NCBI GenBank assembly: GCA_017849615.1
Contig: JAFIGS010000011.1
Coordinates: forward strand, 372,001 to 436,000
Source: Pseudolabrys sp.
Lineage (GTDB): Bacteria; Pseudomonadota; Alphaproteobacteria; Rhizobiales; Xanthobacteraceae
DNA length: 64,000 nt
Reading direction: 5' to 3'
The notes under the pieces: model-generated
Database searches by the model: none
What the model was told of the DNA's origin: nothing
What the model saw: the letters and a program-made list of their open reading frames with translations, nothing else
Translations under genes and position numbers: made by a program
Shown here: positions 2,912 through 11,221 of the stretch, piece after piece
How positions within the stretch are numbered: position 1 is the first letter of the stretch
Layout: every line of letters starts with the position of its first letter

Positions 2912-5713
<2,802 letters not shown>

Positions 5714-5749
5714 CGGCCATGATGGCAAGAGGCCGGATGTCTGGCCGTA

Positions 5750-6379
5750 CTATCTCGCCGCACCCGCGTAGCGGGTGTTGCTGAGATAGGATGACAGGGC
5801 ATCGATCTGATCCGGCGACAGGTTGCCGGCAATGTGCGGCATAGGTGTCGCGCCGGCCCGGTTGTAGCCGTTTTGCCAGTCCGTCAAGCGTCGCACCAGA
5901 TAGCTGTGCGAGAGGCCGTCGAGACGCGGAATCGCGCCAACGCCCGTGGCGTGCGGACCATGGCACGCCACGCAGGCAACGATGTTCTCGTCTGCCACCC
6001 CGTTCTGGTAGATGTCGCGTCCGCGCCCCTCAAGCGCTGGATTGCCATCCATCGCAGGCTTGGTATCCAGCGCCGCGAGATAATCGGTCAGCGCGCGCAT
6101 GCGTCCGTCGCTGAGATTTTCCGCCGCCGCCCACATGAACTGGATTGACGCCGGCGCATCGCGGCCATGCATCCGGAATCGCTCAAGTTGCGCGCGCAGG
6201 TAAGCGCGTTGCTGCCCGGCAAGGCGGGGCGCTGGCAGATAGCCTTGCGCGCCGCCGCCGTGGCACCAAGTGCAGTTGCCGATCGCCGGGTCTTCCGCGC
6301 CGGCCGGGCTCGCCAAGCCTGCGAACAAAATGGTCGACGCTGCGGCGATGAGTAGAGCCTCCGCCAGACGCGAGCGCAT
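5750..6379 (-). CDS. Di-haem c4-type cytochrome c (third of three tandem copies)
   Basis: 209 aa. A signal peptide at about 1-28 ends SPAGA. There are two haem sites, CTWCH (36-40) and CVACH (136-140), in two similar halves with the PRLAGQQ and PRLDGL segments usual for cytochrome c4. Candidate axial Met ligands lie in IQFMWAAAENL and TPMPHIAGNL. It is expected to be a periplasmic electron carrier. The start at 6379 has AGGTAGGA 8 nt upstream. An in-frame start at 6409 would overlap the preceding gene and lacks this site. It is the most diverged of the three paralogues and the last gene of the cluster. Confidence 0.88.
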   Translation of the reverse strand: MRSRLAEALLIAAASTILFAGLASPAGAEDPAIGNCTWCHGGGAQGYLPAPRLAGQQRAYLRAQLERFRMHGRDAPASIQFMWAAAENLSDGRMRALTDYLAALDTKPAMDGNPALEGRGRDIYQNGVADENIVACVACHGPHATGVGAIPRLDGLSHSYLVRRLTDWQNGYNRAGATPMPHIAGNLSPDQIDALSSYLSNTRYAGAAR

Positions 6380-6389
6380 GGTATGTTTC

Positions 6390-7046
6390 CTACCTGAGCG
6401 AGCTGACATAAGCGGCCACCGCTTGCGCTTCGGAGCGAGAAAGACTGTGAGCCACCGGCTCCATGATCAGCGATGTATCGGGCTGCGAGGCGATTTGGCC
6501 CCGTTCTTTGCTCCAGTTGACCAGTTTGAAAACGACGTACTCATAAAGCTGACCGGCGAGCCTCGGGATTTCGCCGGTTCCTTGCGCCGCGGGACCGTGG
6601 CATGCCGCGCACGCCGCCACGTCTTTTTCCGGGATACCGTGGTCGAAGATATCCTTACCTTGCGCAGCGAGCGTTTGCGGTGCACCGCCGATTGGCGCCA
6701 CCTTGGCCGCGTTAAAGCGCGCGGCCAAGGCCGCAGCCATGTTGCCATGTAATCCGTGCGCGACATTGAGCATGATAGCGTTTTTGCGCCGGCGTTCGAG
6801 GAAAGCGCGAAGCTGATTTTCAATGTACTGGGTCTGCTGTCCGGCGAGCCGCGGGATCGGATAGAAGCCGCGGTAGCCTTGCCCGTTAGGACCGTGGCAA
6901 TCCTGACAGTAAGCAAACTTTTCCGACAGTGATTCTGCCGGACCCGCGGTCGCGGCCGCGCCTGGTGCTAGGCTGCAGGCGACAATCAGCATTGCCGCGA
7001 TCCGGCGGCACATGCTGCGGTCAATTCTTTTCACGGCTCGGGTCAT
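6390..7046 (-). CDS. Di-haem c4-type cytochrome c (second tandem copy)
   Basis: 218 aa with a signal segment at about 12-36. Haem motifs are CQDCH (47-51) and CAACH (146-150). GFYPIPRLAGQQ and KERGQIASQPD are shared almost word for word with the upstream copy at 7051-7695, so the two arose by duplication. Met ligands are probably in AIMLNVAHGL and LIMEPVAHSL. The ATG at 7046 lies 4 nt after the upstream stop; ATG at 7013 is an alternative start. The arrangement suggests coupled translation and stepwise electron transfer in the periplasm. Confidence 0.88.
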   Translation of the reverse strand: MTRAVKRIDRSMCRRIAAMLIVACSLAPGAAATAGPAESLSEKFAYCQDCHGPNGQGYRGFYPIPRLAGQQTQYIENQLRAFLERRRKNAIMLNVAHGLHGNMAAALAARFNAAKVAPIGGAPQTLAAQGKDIFDHGIPEKDVAACAACHGPAAQGTGEIPRLAGQLYEYVVFKLVNWSKERGQIASQPDTSLIMEPVAHSLSRSEAQAVAAYVSSLR

Positions 7047-7050
7047 CGCG

Positions 7051-7695
7051 TCATTCCAGCGTGCTGACATAGGCCGCCACCGCTTTGATCTGATCCGGCG
7101 TCAGGCCGTGCGCGATCGGCTCCATCAACGCCGAGGCATCCGGCTGCGAAGCGATCTGACCGCGCTCCTTGTCCCAATTCGCCAGCTTCGCAACAACGTA
7201 ATCGCTGAGCTGGCCGGCAAGTCGGGGAATTTCGCCGTTGCCGGCCGCCGTGTCGCCGTGGCAAGTCGCGCAAGCTGGGACATTCGTGGCCGATACGCCT
7301 TGCGTGAATATCGTCTTGCCTTCGGAGGCCAGTCTTGCCGGTCCACCGCCGAGCGGTTTGGGGTCGAGCTTGTTGAAGTGACTTGAAAGCGCTGAAAGCA
7401 TTTCCGGCGAAAGCACATGGGCGACACTGAACATGATCGTGTTGGTGCGCCGTTTTTGGGTGAACGCCAGAAGCTGGTTCTTCATGTAGTCGGGCTGCTG
7501 TCCGGCGAGCCGCGGGATCGGGTAGAAGCCGCGGAAGCCTTGTCCTGACACGCCGTGGCAGGTCGTGCAGTAATGCACTTTGGCGGCAAATTCGCGCGGC
7601 GGAGCCTGTTTGTCGTCCGCATGAGCCGTGGTCGCCGACGCGGCACCGAGGGCGGCGAACAGCTTACCGGACTGCAAGATGGCCTTGGCCTTCAT
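7051..7695 (-). CDS. Di-haem c4-type cytochrome c (first tandem copy)
   Basis: 214 aa. The signal peptide ends near residue 26 (TTAHA). Haem motifs are CTTCH (43-47) and CATCH (142-146), each followed by a c4-like PRLAGQ segment. Axial Met candidates are in TIMFSVAHVL and ALMEPIAHGL. GGGAGG lies 8 nt before the ATG. It sits 15 nt downstream of the fused cytochrome-barrel gene on the same strand. This is the order expected if the barrel protein passes electrons to soluble di-haem carriers, as Cyc2 does to Cyc1 in Acidithiobacillus. The transfer partner itself is inferred. Confidence 0.9.
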   Translation of the reverse strand: MKAKAILQSGKLFAALGAASATTAHADDKQAPPREFAAKVHYCTTCHGVSGQGFRGFYPIPRLAGQQPDYMKNQLLAFTQKRRTNTIMFSVAHVLSPEMLSALSSHFNKLDPKPLGGGPARLASEGKTIFTQGVSATNVPACATCHGDTAAGNGEIPRLAGQLSDYVVAKLANWDKERGQIASQPDASALMEPIAHGLTPDQIKAVAAYVSTLE

Positions 7696-7710
7696 GGCAG
7701 CGTCCTCCCG

Positions 7711-9326
7711 CTACATTGCCAGCCACAAATAGGCGAACAGCGTGTTATTGTTGTGCGCATACATCGTGTCCCCGTCGAACCGATTGTAGTAGGTGTATTG
7801 CAATCCGATGCGCGCATTCGCCCATGGCCATCCGGGCGAATGTTTGGAAATGTAGGGGATGTAGGACAGGTCGAAGATGAAGCCGTTGCTGTTCGGGTCG
7901 GTCTGCGCAGTCGCATTCGGATCGAACTGGCTCACGAGGCCGCCATATAAGATGGGGTCTGTTGAGCCCTTCGTGCTGAAGTATTGTGTCGTAAAGACAA
8001 TGCGATTGTCGTTGCCATAAGCGATCGAGGCGTCAAGTCGCAGCGTGTCGAGCGTATTCGACGGGTTGCTCGATCCGCCGTTGTTGAACGTCGCGTCGAG
8101 CTTCATGAACTCGTGAATCCAGGTTCCGCGAAGGGTGAGCCAGTAGTTTTCCCCGCGGTACTGGTACTGGGCGTCGAATGCTGTGTCGGTGTAACGGTCG
8201 GTGAACGGGATGGACGCCGGAATCTGGAAGCCGTTGCCGTCGAGTTGCGTCGTATCCCACTGCCGGACGTTAGCCTGTATCCCGTAGGCGCCCAGCATCA
8301 GCCAATGATTGCCCCAATGAGGCTCGATGGCGATGCGCCAGTAGGGGGCGATGCCGTCGATCATGCCGATGCCGAACGGATCGATGCCGAGCTTGGTCTG
8401 CGTCTTAAATCCGACAGATCGATAGCCCGACAGTTCGAGATACAGGAAGTCGTTTATAAAGGCGTAGGCGCCGACGCCGGCGACGTGGCCCGGCCCCAAT
8501 GCTTCGATGAATGTTGACGTCGCGGGGCCTGGCGCTGTGGTCGAGGCTGAAAAAGGAAACCGCCAAGCCGGCGTCGTATTCCACGGATCCTGTACAGAGG
8601 GATTGTTGTTGGCGGTAATGCCGAAGATGACCTCGGTGCCGCCGATATTAAATGTGTTCGCGTAACGAACATCGGTATTATCCCAAGACCACTGGAACGT
8701 TGCGTAAGGATCAGTCGCCGACGGAACGCCAAATGCCGCACCGGAATAGGTGACCTGTGCGAACGCGCCGATATGGTCGGTAATGGCGCCGGCGTAGAAC
8801 AGGCTCACGGGTGCGGCGGCAACCTGATCGTTGCAAGGATACGGTCCGCAGGGCGCGATCTGGGACGATTGGGTGTGCGTAAGGCCGACGACGGCCATGG
8901 CTGATATCGGCGGTACCCAGGTGCGATCCGACTCCGGCTTTGGCGAGGCTATGCTGCCGGCATCGGTCCGTATGTCCTTCTCATAAGCTCTAAGTCTGGC
9001 GTCGTCATCCAGGGGCGCGACGTTCGCTCGAAAGAGCCCGAATGGCGCTGTCCGGTATGGGCCGCCCCGGTCGTGTAACCCAAAAGCTTGAAGCGCCGGC
9101 CGTAGGGCGTCAGTGCGGGAAAATCGGTATGGCAAGTACCGCAAGGCTGTCCAGTTTGCCGGGCAAAGCTTGGAAGGGCCATTGCCGGCGACAGTGCGTC
9201 GGTTGCAGTCAAGACGCAGGCACCGAGAAGAAACGCTGCGGCCACCTTATGGGCAGCGGACGAATGACGGGGGTTCTCTTTTTTGGCCTCCGTCTGGAAG
9301 CTGGTCGGCAACGTCGAGGCGTTCAT
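7711..9326 (-). pseudogene. Cyc2-like fused cytochrome-porin, interrupted by one frameshift
   Basis: Two reading frames join into one protein of about 538 aa. The 5' frame (9326 to about 9068) has a signal peptide ending PAMA (50) and the motif LPSFARQTGQPCGTCHTDFP with one haem site CGTCH (62-66), then YGRRFKLLGYTTG. The rest, from GGPYRTAPFG on, is read one frame over and ends at 7711. It consists of alternating aromatic and polar strands typical of an outer-membrane barrel. Restoring one G in the GGGG at 9065-9068 gives a continuous TTGGGPYR. The FARQTG-CxxCH-FGRxFK layout resembles Cyc2 iron oxidases. It is either a true frameshift or a homopolymer sequencing error. The start at 9326 has a GGGGGG just upstream. 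Confidence 0.75.
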
Positions 9327-9465
9327 AGTCCCCCCCGAACTTCAGGCTTTCTCGGTTGCTTATGCCTTCTGAAAAGGATGCAGTAGCCATCAGGGCTGAT
9401 GTCGCCCTCGATCTTCTGGCGAGCGCCATCGGATAATTTGTAACATTTATAAATCAGGCCGACGT

Positions 9466-9479
9466 TTGATCTGCATCAA
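9466..9479 (-). promoter_or_regulatory. FNR/FixK-type binding site upstream of the cytochrome cluster
   Basis: The perfect inverted repeat TTGAT-CTGC-ATCAA matches the FNR/FixK consensus TTGAT-N4-ATCAA. On the minus strand, AT-rich hexamers that could serve as a -10 (TATAAA at 9451-9446, TTACAA at 9443-9438) lie 20-35 nt downstream, a spacing compatible with activation. The cytochrome-barrel ATG is 140 nt away. It implies expression at low oxygen. Confidence 0.7.
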
Positions 9480-9741
9480 GGGTCAGGATAACAAGTCCAT
9501 AAGCGGGCCGTATCTGAATAGGGTGCAGGGATGACGCGCGCTCAATTGGTATGTCGATCATGCTGTGCTACGAAGGTACGTATCCACCTTGTGGATCCGA
9601 GCCGAGGCAACGCAGCGGCGGTCGTAAAAAGAGCAATTACCTACATGGAAAAATTTGCGTCGGTACAGCCACATACAATGATGAATTCGGATCGCGGCCG
9701 ATGACGAGCGCAGAGTCCCTTGCCATTGGTGACGCCGCGGT
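9480..9741. other. AT-richer stretch without a recognisable gene
   Basis: This lies between the FNR box and the second secA-end repeat. I find no ORF with a family signature. The 74-codon plus-strand ORF at 9551-9775 has no ribosome binding site and runs through the repeat. The stretch may be the decayed end of the inserted element. Confidence 0.4.
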
Positions 9742-9763
9742 AGCACTGCCACGGCCAGTACGC
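9742..9763 (+). repeat. 22-nt direct repeat, copy 2 (relic of secA 3' end, putative attR)
   Basis: Identical to 5688-5709. In the secA frame it reads HCHGQYA followed by TAA at 9764-9767 after one changed base, so it is a relic of the original end of secA. It lies 13 nt before the racemase-like gene. Confidence 0.85.
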
Positions 9764-9776
9764 GTAAGCCGCTGAC

Positions 9777-10490
9777 ATGCGGGCCGTCGGCGGCAAAGGG
9801 GTTTACGGCGCGTCGGTCGGCATCCTGATGCTCGACGCGCGGTTTCCGCGTATCCCCGGCGACATGGGCAATGCGACGACGTGGCCGTTTCCGGTGCAGT
9901 ATCGTCTGGTACGCAACGCCACGCCGGACGCGGTGGTCCGTCAGGGCGCGCCGGGGCTGCTCGACGTTTTCATCGAAGCCGCGCATGACCTCGTGCGCCA
10001 CGGCGTCGATGGCATCACCACCAATTGCGGCTTCCTGTCGCTGTTCCAGGACGAGCTCGCCGACGCTGTCGGCGTTCCCGTCGCAACCTCGTCATTGATG
10101 CAGGTGGAGTTCGTCAATCGCCTGCTGCCGCGCGGCAAGCGCGCCGGCATTCTCACCATCTCGGCCTCGACGCTGACGCCGGCCCATCTGCAAAAGGCGC
10201 GCGTGCCGGAAGGCACGCCGGTTGGCAGCACCGAAGGGGGGCGCGAATTCACGCGCGCCATCCTGGGCAACGAGCTTGAGCTCGACGTCGCGCTGGCGCG
10301 GCAGGACAATATCGAGGCGGCTATCGCGTTGCAGAAGGCCCATCCGGATCTCGGCGCCATCGTGCTCGAATGCACCAATATGATCCCGTACGCCGCCGAC
10401 ATCCGTCGTGCGACCGGGCTGCCGGTCTTCTCGATCTACAATTTCATTTGCTGGTTTCAGCAGAGCCTGGTGCCGCGGACGTTTCCATAG
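9777..10490 (+). CDS. Aspartate/glutamate racemase-family protein
   Basis: 237 aa cytosolic protein of the Asp/Glu/hydantoin racemase superfamily. Both catalytic cysteines are present: TTNCGF (Cys84) and LECTNM (Cys199). The N-terminus VGILMLDARFPRIPGDMGN is typical of a subgroup found in catabolic clusters. An in-frame TAA lies just upstream, so 9777 is the first possible ATG. It probably epimerises or isomerises a dicarboxylate or amino acid, but the substrate is not known. It converges with the GntR gene at 10517 and probably serves the same locus. Confidence 0.8.
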   Translation: MRAVGGKGVYGASVGILMLDARFPRIPGDMGNATTWPFPVQYRLVRNATPDAVVRQGAPGLLDVFIEAAHDLVRHGVDGITTNCGFLSLFQDELADAVGVPVATSSLMQVEFVNRLLPRGKRAGILTISASTLTPAHLQKARVPEGTPVGSTEGGREFTRAILGNELELDVALARQDNIEAAIALQKAHPDLGAIVLECTNMIPYAADIRRATGLPVFSIYNFICWFQQSLVPRTFP

Positions 10491-10516: not shown

Positions 10517-11221
10517 TTACTGCCTGAAAACCTGCGCCGGTAACTGCTCGGAAAAGCGGTTGGCGCGGTCGAGATGCCTGCGCATGTGTTCGGCCGCTGC
10601 CGCGCCATCCCCGGCGAGGATCGCCTTGGCCACCGCGCGATGCTCGGCATTCGATTGCGCCAGGATGTCTACGGTCAGAGCGCCGCTCAATTGAAACATG
10701 ATCAGCGGCAGTTGCAATTGCCGGCCGACCGACGCGAGTTGGTCGTTGCCGCTGGCATCGACCACGGCCTGATGGAAGAGCTTGTTCTCGTCGAGATAGG
10801 CGAGCGGCATGTTGCGCGGCGAGTCGTTCCAGATCGGCGCGATGGCCGCCTCGAATTTCTCGCGTACGCCCGGCGATGAGATATTTGCGGCGGCGAGTTG
10901 CGCCGCCAGCATTTCCAGCGCGGTGCGGATCTGGAACAGCTCGCGCGTTTCCTTGCGTGTCAGGCGGCGGACCACCGCGCCTCGGTTCGGCACGCTTTCG
11001 ATTAGGCCTTCCGCCGACAAGCGCCGGAATGCTTCGCGCAGCGGGCCGCGGCTGACACCGAAGGCGCGCGTCAGGTCGGCCTCGATCAGTCGCTGACCGG
11101 CGGCGTAGCGGCCGTAAAGGATGCCCTCACGCAGATTTTCAACCAAGCGTTCGACCGTCGTGCCGCGGCCTTTGCCGCCGGCACCGTCGTCGGTCAGGTC
11201 TGGGTCGGGTTGATCGAGCAC
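10517..11221 (-). CDS. GntR-family transcriptional regulator (FCD/FadR subfamily)
   Basis: 234 aa. A winged helix at about 22-90 (LREGILYGRYAAGQRLIEADL, FGVSRGPLREAFRRL, RGAVVRRLT) is followed by an all-helical FCD ligand domain (about 95-220) with the Asp/His residues typical for metal and carboxylate binding (DENKLFHQAV, NAEHRAVAKAI). It is divergent from the citryl-CoA-lyase-like gene. A TTGT-CCT-ACAA inverted repeat lies between them, so it probably represses that operon until its carboxylate ligand binds. Confidence 0.88.
   Translation of the reverse strand: MLDQPDPDLTDDGAGGKGRGTTVERLVENLREGILYGRYAAGQRLIEADLTRAFGVSRGPLREAFRRLSAEGLIESVPNRGAVVRRLTRKETRELFQIRTALEMLAAQLAAANISSPGVREKFEAAIAPIWNDSPRNMPLAYLDENKLFHQAVVDASGNDQLASVGRQLQLPLIMFQLSGALTVDILAQSNAEHRAVAKAILAGDGAAAAEHMRRHLDRANRFSEQLPAQVFRQ

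Follow-up and report, generated by a model that had tools for sequence, protein, structure and literature searches.

A cytochrome gene block between secA and a secA remnant in Pseudolabrys, and the 3′ end of secA as a probable integration site among its relatives

The genome of Pseudolabrys sp. (GenBank assembly GCA_017849615.1) contains a block of cytochrome genes directly behind secA, and a 22-nt sequence from the end of secA is found again on the far side of that block. Both lie in a 64,000-nt stretch of contig JAFIGS010000011.1, here called the window. How did the block come to lie between two secA ends? The original prediction, made from the letters of the window, was that a cytochrome island had integrated into the 3′ end of secA and that the 22 nt were its duplicated core. 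Sequence comparisons show that the distal copy is not a bare 22-nt attachment core: it terminates a longer secA fragment, which is decayed and of sister-clade type, and the repeat is the best-kept stretch of a partial secA duplication. The predicted use of the secA 3′ end by integrases does apply to relatives, although the block in the window is unlike the elements found there.

The exact 22-mer is present on the forward strand at 5688–5709, in the end of secA, and at 9742–9763; if up to three mismatches are allowed, there are still only these two matches in the window. The proximal copy encodes HCHGQYA and is followed by the stop codon TGA, whereas the distal copy encodes HCHGQYA followed by TAA. 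Thus, a direct repeat that spans the gene end (22 nt, exact) is found at both borders of the block, as had been described. None of 100 shuffled controls contained a match to the 22-mer, in line with the claim that the recurrence is beyond chance, and a chance repeat is rejected on this basis. A dispersed repeat, which would also have spoken against integration, is likewise rejected, because a search of the same genome with the secA tail (expectation value, E, at most 0.001) found two places only, both in the window, and the same two were returned when the secA end was searched for as a degenerate pattern. A chance match or an error of assembly is therefore given almost no credence: the window does come from a 35-contig assembly, but the stretch lies inside a contig of 503 kb, and the sequence to the left of the distal copy has statistical support of its own.

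When positions 9250–9766 were aligned with the 3′ ends of secA genes, a decayed secA fragment of the sister-clade (type-2) kind was evident on the forward strand at 9591–9741, adjoining the distal copy. Relative to a profile made from the sister-clade genomes G024, G013, G012 and G002, positions 9591–9743 correspond to profile positions 646–784 and positions 9742–9768 to profile positions 878–904, so that 93 nt of the SEC-C part (93 profile positions) are absent between the remnant and the distal 22-mer. The remnant and the 22-mer share one register, as expected of a single secA fragment with a gap, and 9742–9768 matches the sister-clade consensus at every position, through the stop codon to the G that follows it. 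In a search of the whole window, the profile of these four sister-clade tails finds 9597–9755 with E = 2.7e-11, the next match outside secA having E = 0.006 and the reversed window giving 0.21 at best. The remnant scores 33.9 bits with the sister-clade profile, compared with 11.0 bits for a profile of the window's own clade (three sequences) and 11.4 bits for the tails of the whole genus, and in a tree it falls within the sister clade (0.997), on a long branch. It reads DEFGSRPMTSAESLAIGDAAV against DEFG.QPMTGTASLAMGDTAV, and its identity to the sister-clade consensus is 69% (94/136). The view of the distal 22 nt as a bare duplicated core was not sustained, as the remnant continues leftwards from it. 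The order of the locus is thus secA with its clade-typical end, the cytochrome block, a decayed and 5′-truncated sister-clade secA 3′ fragment, the secA end, and a racemase gene. The locus shows that what looks like a perfect short repeat may mark the end of an older, partial duplication of a gene, which calls for caution where attachment sites are assigned from a repeat only.

The complete secA gene (2912–5713, forward strand) encodes 933 amino acids. Between the two copies of the 22-mer there are only minus-strand genes, three for cytochromes c and one porin-like, with no integrase among them. At 0.602, the GC content (guanine plus cytosine) of 5714–9713 ranks last among 240 4-kb windows (mean 0.646, standard deviation 0.015). 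The original prediction was correct as to the strand of the genes, the lower GC content and the lack of an integrase. The GC content of the first cytochrome gene is 0.655, despite the low value of the block. The cargo is a group of cytochrome genes that includes a Cyc2-like cytochrome–porin gene with a frameshift. Beyond the distal copy is a gene of the Asp/Glu/hydantoin racemase family (9777–10490, forward strand). Three features were not part of the original prediction: the leftward secA remnant, the frameshift in the porin gene, and the reversed racemase of the relatives considered below.

Was the block an old resident behind secA? The search for secA was successful in 41 of the 43 genomes of the genus, including that of the window, and secA plus its downstream DNA was fetched for 37 relatives, the stretches differing in length. 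The cytochromes of the window (E ≤ 1e-4) were behind secA in 0/37 of these stretches, some of which are short (412 nt in G039, 1060 nt in G024); long residence is thus unsupported, and the idea that all relatives might carry the cytochromes at this place is contradicted. Relatives in which secA is followed by the racemase gene without cytochromes between them, for which the original prediction had suggested a look, are G024, G012 and G002, where the racemase gene lies 73–79 nt behind secA. Removal of the block would therefore place the racemase gene as it is placed in relatives with respect to position, but not with respect to orientation, since in all three it is on the opposite strand. The racemase of the window is 82–84% identical to all five others compared, which is about the between-clade distance, and it may therefore be native; the racemase of G007 is 87–89% identical to those of the sister clade.

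The content behind secA is variable in the genus, as follows from the different neighbours in these three genomes, in G007 and in G001. In G007, the nearest relative by SecA identity (95%), secA is followed by a phn-type operon, the racemase gene on the minus strand, TRAP-type genes, a second secA tail, and then gntR, and in G001 by a phn-type operon and then gntR (the names phn-type and TRAP-type are from translations read by eye, with no search). In the window, too, a GntR/FCD regulator gene follows (10517–11221, minus strand). As a separate observation, secA of G013 (L007, L069) is on contig C87, where the next gene, as judged by eye, is transporter-like, and the racemase gene is near the end of contig C77; perhaps this is another insertion at the secA site, with contig ends intervening.

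In the relatives, the 3′ end of secA appears to be a genuine integration site for tyrosine recombinases. A secA tail was obtained in 374 of 391 genomes of the family, and the 50 relatives with a second match were searched again; in many of them the second match is confined to the query's SEC-C part, as would be so for other genes with this motif. In G350, from another genus of the family, secA is immediately followed by a gene for a tyrosine recombinase of 388 amino acids, and 16.2 kb further the secA end recurs. Relatives of this integrase are found in 57 of the 391 genomes (E ≤ 0.001), mostly at low identity. One of them, in G041, which belongs to the genus of the window, is 53% identical to that of G350 and is again directly behind secA. 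A scan of contigs for this integrase gave two loci, L068 (the contig of G041) and L067, from a metagenome-assembled genome (MAG) of the Beijerinckiaceae, where the integrase gene once more directly follows secA. The recombinases of G350, G041 and L067 belong to Pfam family PF00589, and in the alignment of those of G350 and G041 the residues R, HxxR and Y, which are catalytic in tyrosine recombinases, are conserved. Horizontal transfer into the same secA site is indicated for G041 and L067, which are 95.4% identical over 1627 bp starting just inside the secA end, compared with 73.7% for secA DNA. The SecA proteins of G041 and L067 both end in HCHGVL, whereas those of near congeners of G041 end in HCHGRFV; insertion would thus replace the last residues of SecA. 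Recombinase-bearing relatives, for which the original prediction had suggested a search, exist (G041, L067, G350 and G622, which is described next), but the block in the window does not match their elements.

At the level of the order, 9 of 397 genomes have a match to the integrase at E ≤ 1e-25. Upstream secA is seen in just one of these nine loci, that of G622 (another family), which is cut by a contig end; it is possible that G622 and L067 are members of one family. The contig of G228 starts inside the integrase gene, and the order loci of about 30% identity have no secA within 1.5 kb upstream. Integrase remnants are present behind secA in G301, G175, G371 and G318, and a remnant of the same integrase clade that lies away from secA in G361 counts against a strict site preference. 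Relatives of the integrase in phages (18 records) are at most 23% identical among the 12 listed, those on plasmids (seven records) are at most 29% identical, and no relatives were found on viral contigs.

Second copies of the secA end start 27 nt before the stop codon in G350, 31 nt in G228 and 29 nt in G039, with two, zero and one mismatches to the gene end, respectively; the exact repeat of the window starts 23 nt before the stop codon, a small difference. A similar copy was seen in G005, in which secA's own end is absent from the assembly. Only in G350 is the second copy on the contig of secA (L041:17618), those of G228, G039 and G005 being on other contigs; G039 and G005 showed no integrase. 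The sequence TAGGCA, presumed to mark arm-type sites, occurs twice beside each of the sites in G041, L067, G039 and G005, and a DUF6641 gene is present in the presumed element DNA of G350, G041 and G228. Left of the distal copies of the integrase elements there is no further secA. Second secA tails are also present in G016, G260 and G130 (inspected) and in G230 (listed only). An inverted repeat of 11-7-11 around the core scores 7–8 of 11 in the secA genes of five relatives and 6 in the window, and was not used, as equal scores occur nearby. Within G350 (L041), positions 7228–7728 are an inverted partial copy of the element's own left end (secA tail and integrase start), which suggests composite or repeated insertion, and G228 has two right-end copies inverted to each other on one contig.

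Could the block in the window be the relic of such an element, which has lost its integrase? The 22-nt repeat would then be the core of the left and right attachment sites (attL/attR) and the remnant would come from an earlier host. This is possible but rather doubtful. Integrases use this site in G041 and G350 and, outside the family, in L067 and G622; copies of the secA end are found in G350, G228, G039 and G005, with starts near that of the window in the first three, where both copies could be compared; a perfect 22-mer beside flanks of 69% identity is what a core would give; and the block lies between secA and a racemase gene that neighbours secA in relatives. However, the genome of the window has no integrase of this clade (E ≤ 0.001), TAGGCA does not occur in 5701–9790, and the remnant is in register with the 22-mer, in contrast to the distal copies of integrase elements. 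In its fullest form, which we likewise consider unlikely, the proposal would be that the secA 3′ end is a true attachment site for a cross-family recombinase clade of one order, which rewrites the last residues of SecA and which left in the window an integrase-less relic with an extracellular electron-transfer cluster (Cyc2-like porin and cytochromes).

Longer displaced tails are found in two congeners. A profile search found secA tails further downstream of secA in G007 (7.7 kb; E = 7e-24) and G008 (2.2 kb; E = 2e-21), with lengths of about 135 nt and about 206 nt, respectively, and neither genome has an integrase of the secA-targeting clade. Among 38 downstream stretches, including that of the window's own genome (G000), only these three have such tails; G006, where the stretch is the broken secA itself, and a second weak match in G008 (E = 0.0016) were set aside. 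The window, having a longer tail and no integrase of this clade, resembles G007 and G008 more than the integrase elements, which favours an addition of foreign DNA. In G008 (L022) an open reading frame 143–2371 nt after secA (locus positions 3439–5664) is a TPR/glycosyltransferase-41 gene directly behind secA; it continues in frame into the displaced SecA tail and ends in the SEC-C motif (residues 722–740), apparently a gene fusion made by the insertion.

The explanation that we tentatively prefer, with a confidence that falls just short of even, is that the block entered as foreign DNA that carried a truncated secA end, and that a crossover close to the 3′ end of the resident gene placed it behind secA. 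The fragment would have arrived together with the block, on a molecule that was circular or was otherwise added and did not replace resident DNA. The crossover would lie within ~120 nt of the end of secA, a part whose DNA stays similar between species owing to the SEC-C motif, and would be the work of RecA-type homologous recombination, which is slightly favoured over a lost integrase for the block in the window. The GTAAG–racemase side would be the old native neighbour of secA, and subsequent decay would account for the 93-nt gap and for the remnant's frameshift. A single crossover of the Campbell type leads to partial duplication of a gene. The window has the corresponding arrangement, i.e., one complete and one 5′-truncated secA with foreign DNA between them, but differs in that its truncated copy has a foreign sequence and that there is no sign of a vector backbone.

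Several points weigh against the addition of foreign DNA by such a crossover. The distal 22 nt are perfect, as would be expected if the crossover had been at the core itself; at the 69% rate of the flank, 22 intact bases have a chance of ~3e-4, a figure that makes the objection look stronger than it is, since some of the 31% may reflect divergence of the donor in a linker that evolves rapidly. The joining of the cytochrome cluster to a 5′-truncated secA fragment is left without explanation, the orientation of the racemase gene requires a further inversion, and neither a circular form nor a donor was found. In addition, although the 3′ part of the full-length secA groups with its own clade (G007, G001), showing the same clade split as ppiC, xerD, aroB and tlyC, there is no such split in argJ and accA (two of six neighbouring genes compared) or in the 5′ part of secA, so that the region shows no single, simple history; G024 was left out of the comparisons of xerD, aroB, tlyC and accA. 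Identities change inside secA at about nt 1600, yet no breakpoint is claimed there, because ppiC, xerD, aroB and tlyC share the split and argJ and accA do not. The GCT-TGA at the secA end was considered as supplied by an element and then dropped, as the end in G007 is similar and the DNA downstream of it is common to G001.

Alternatively, the locus could be a mosaic of unrelated events, the remnant having come by introgression from the sister clade and the cytochrome cluster having been inserted separately. This we regard as improbable. The interval behind secA does differ among the nearest relatives (phn-type operon, TRAP-type genes, the racemase gene in either orientation), and in G007 (L004) a second gene-end duplication is found nearby: a 31-bp imperfect direct repeat (87%) of the gntR 3′ end, at ~3719–3749 and 9842–9872 nt after secA, flanks a 6.1-kb insertion with the racemase gene, TRAP-type genes and the secA tail. 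However, the block fits exactly between two secA ends, and no insertion sequence was recognised among its genes, with no dedicated search for one.

How do these loci compare with known systems? Islands without a recombinase that lie between attachment sites are known as cis-mobilizable elements (CIMEs). The window resembles these in that its cargo is between direct repeats at a gene end with no recombinase; it differs in that the distal repeat is not a clean attachment site, and the likeness, being one of sequence, does not imply mobility. The secA gene is essential and nearly universal, so that its 3′ end would offer integrative elements a docking site in a wide range of bacteria. If the integration site is real, secA adds a protein gene to the known list of targets, with an integrase of predictable site. 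Among integrative and conjugative elements (ICEs), ICERspD18B is inserted at the 3′ end of a conserved gene, guaA, with a direct repeat of ~20 bp and the island lying behind the gene [PMC7775301]. The integrase-bearing secA elements of the relatives fit this class of islands and ICEs at gene 3′ ends, and the window differs from ICERspD18B in its target (secA), in the lack of an integrase in the block, and in a distal repeat that continues into a decayed secA fragment. No paper was found that names secA as an integration target; the island-locus table of TIGER was outside this search, and a listing there is possible. In PMC7775301 the one string match is the plant name secalinum; the main text of PMC12884075 has no match to secA, and the TIGER/Islander announcement [PMC12424338] does not mention it.

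The cargo comprises three cytochrome c genes, each with two CXXCH motifs and all on the minus strand, at 5750–6409, 6390–7070 (start codon uncertain) and 7051–7695, followed on the same strand by the Cyc2-like cytochrome–porin gene at 7711–9326, in two frames (7711–9144 and 8949–9326) with the frameshift near 9066. Between the start of the porin gene and the remnant is a GC-poor stretch (9327–9590; GC 0.508; strand not assigned), for which, the remnant excepted, nothing convincing matched in the fetched loci. Fused cytochrome–porins of the Cyc2 type have a published N-terminal motif, AXPXFAR[Q/K][T/Y] [PMC8406198]. The gene in the window carries this motif together with CXXCH and PXL, and so resembles Cyc2; it differs in being frameshifted, and as a true Cyc2 its product would form a 16-strand barrel and oxidise Fe(II). 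It matched no Pfam or NCBIfam model. The frameshift may be a real loss or an assembly error. Unbroken porin frames are found in G025, G027 and G006, that of G006 being cut by the contig start. Close relatives of the cytochromes (56% identity or more) are present in few congeners, on contigs other than that of secA: those of G025 are not within 16 kb behind secA, and the contigs of G006 and G027 are too short for placement relative to secA. In G006 (contig C276, L048) a related cytochrome/porin cluster adjoins a fragment of a different tyrosine recombinase at 4329–4727 (Pfam E = 2.6e-27), and the cluster may thus also travel by other routes.

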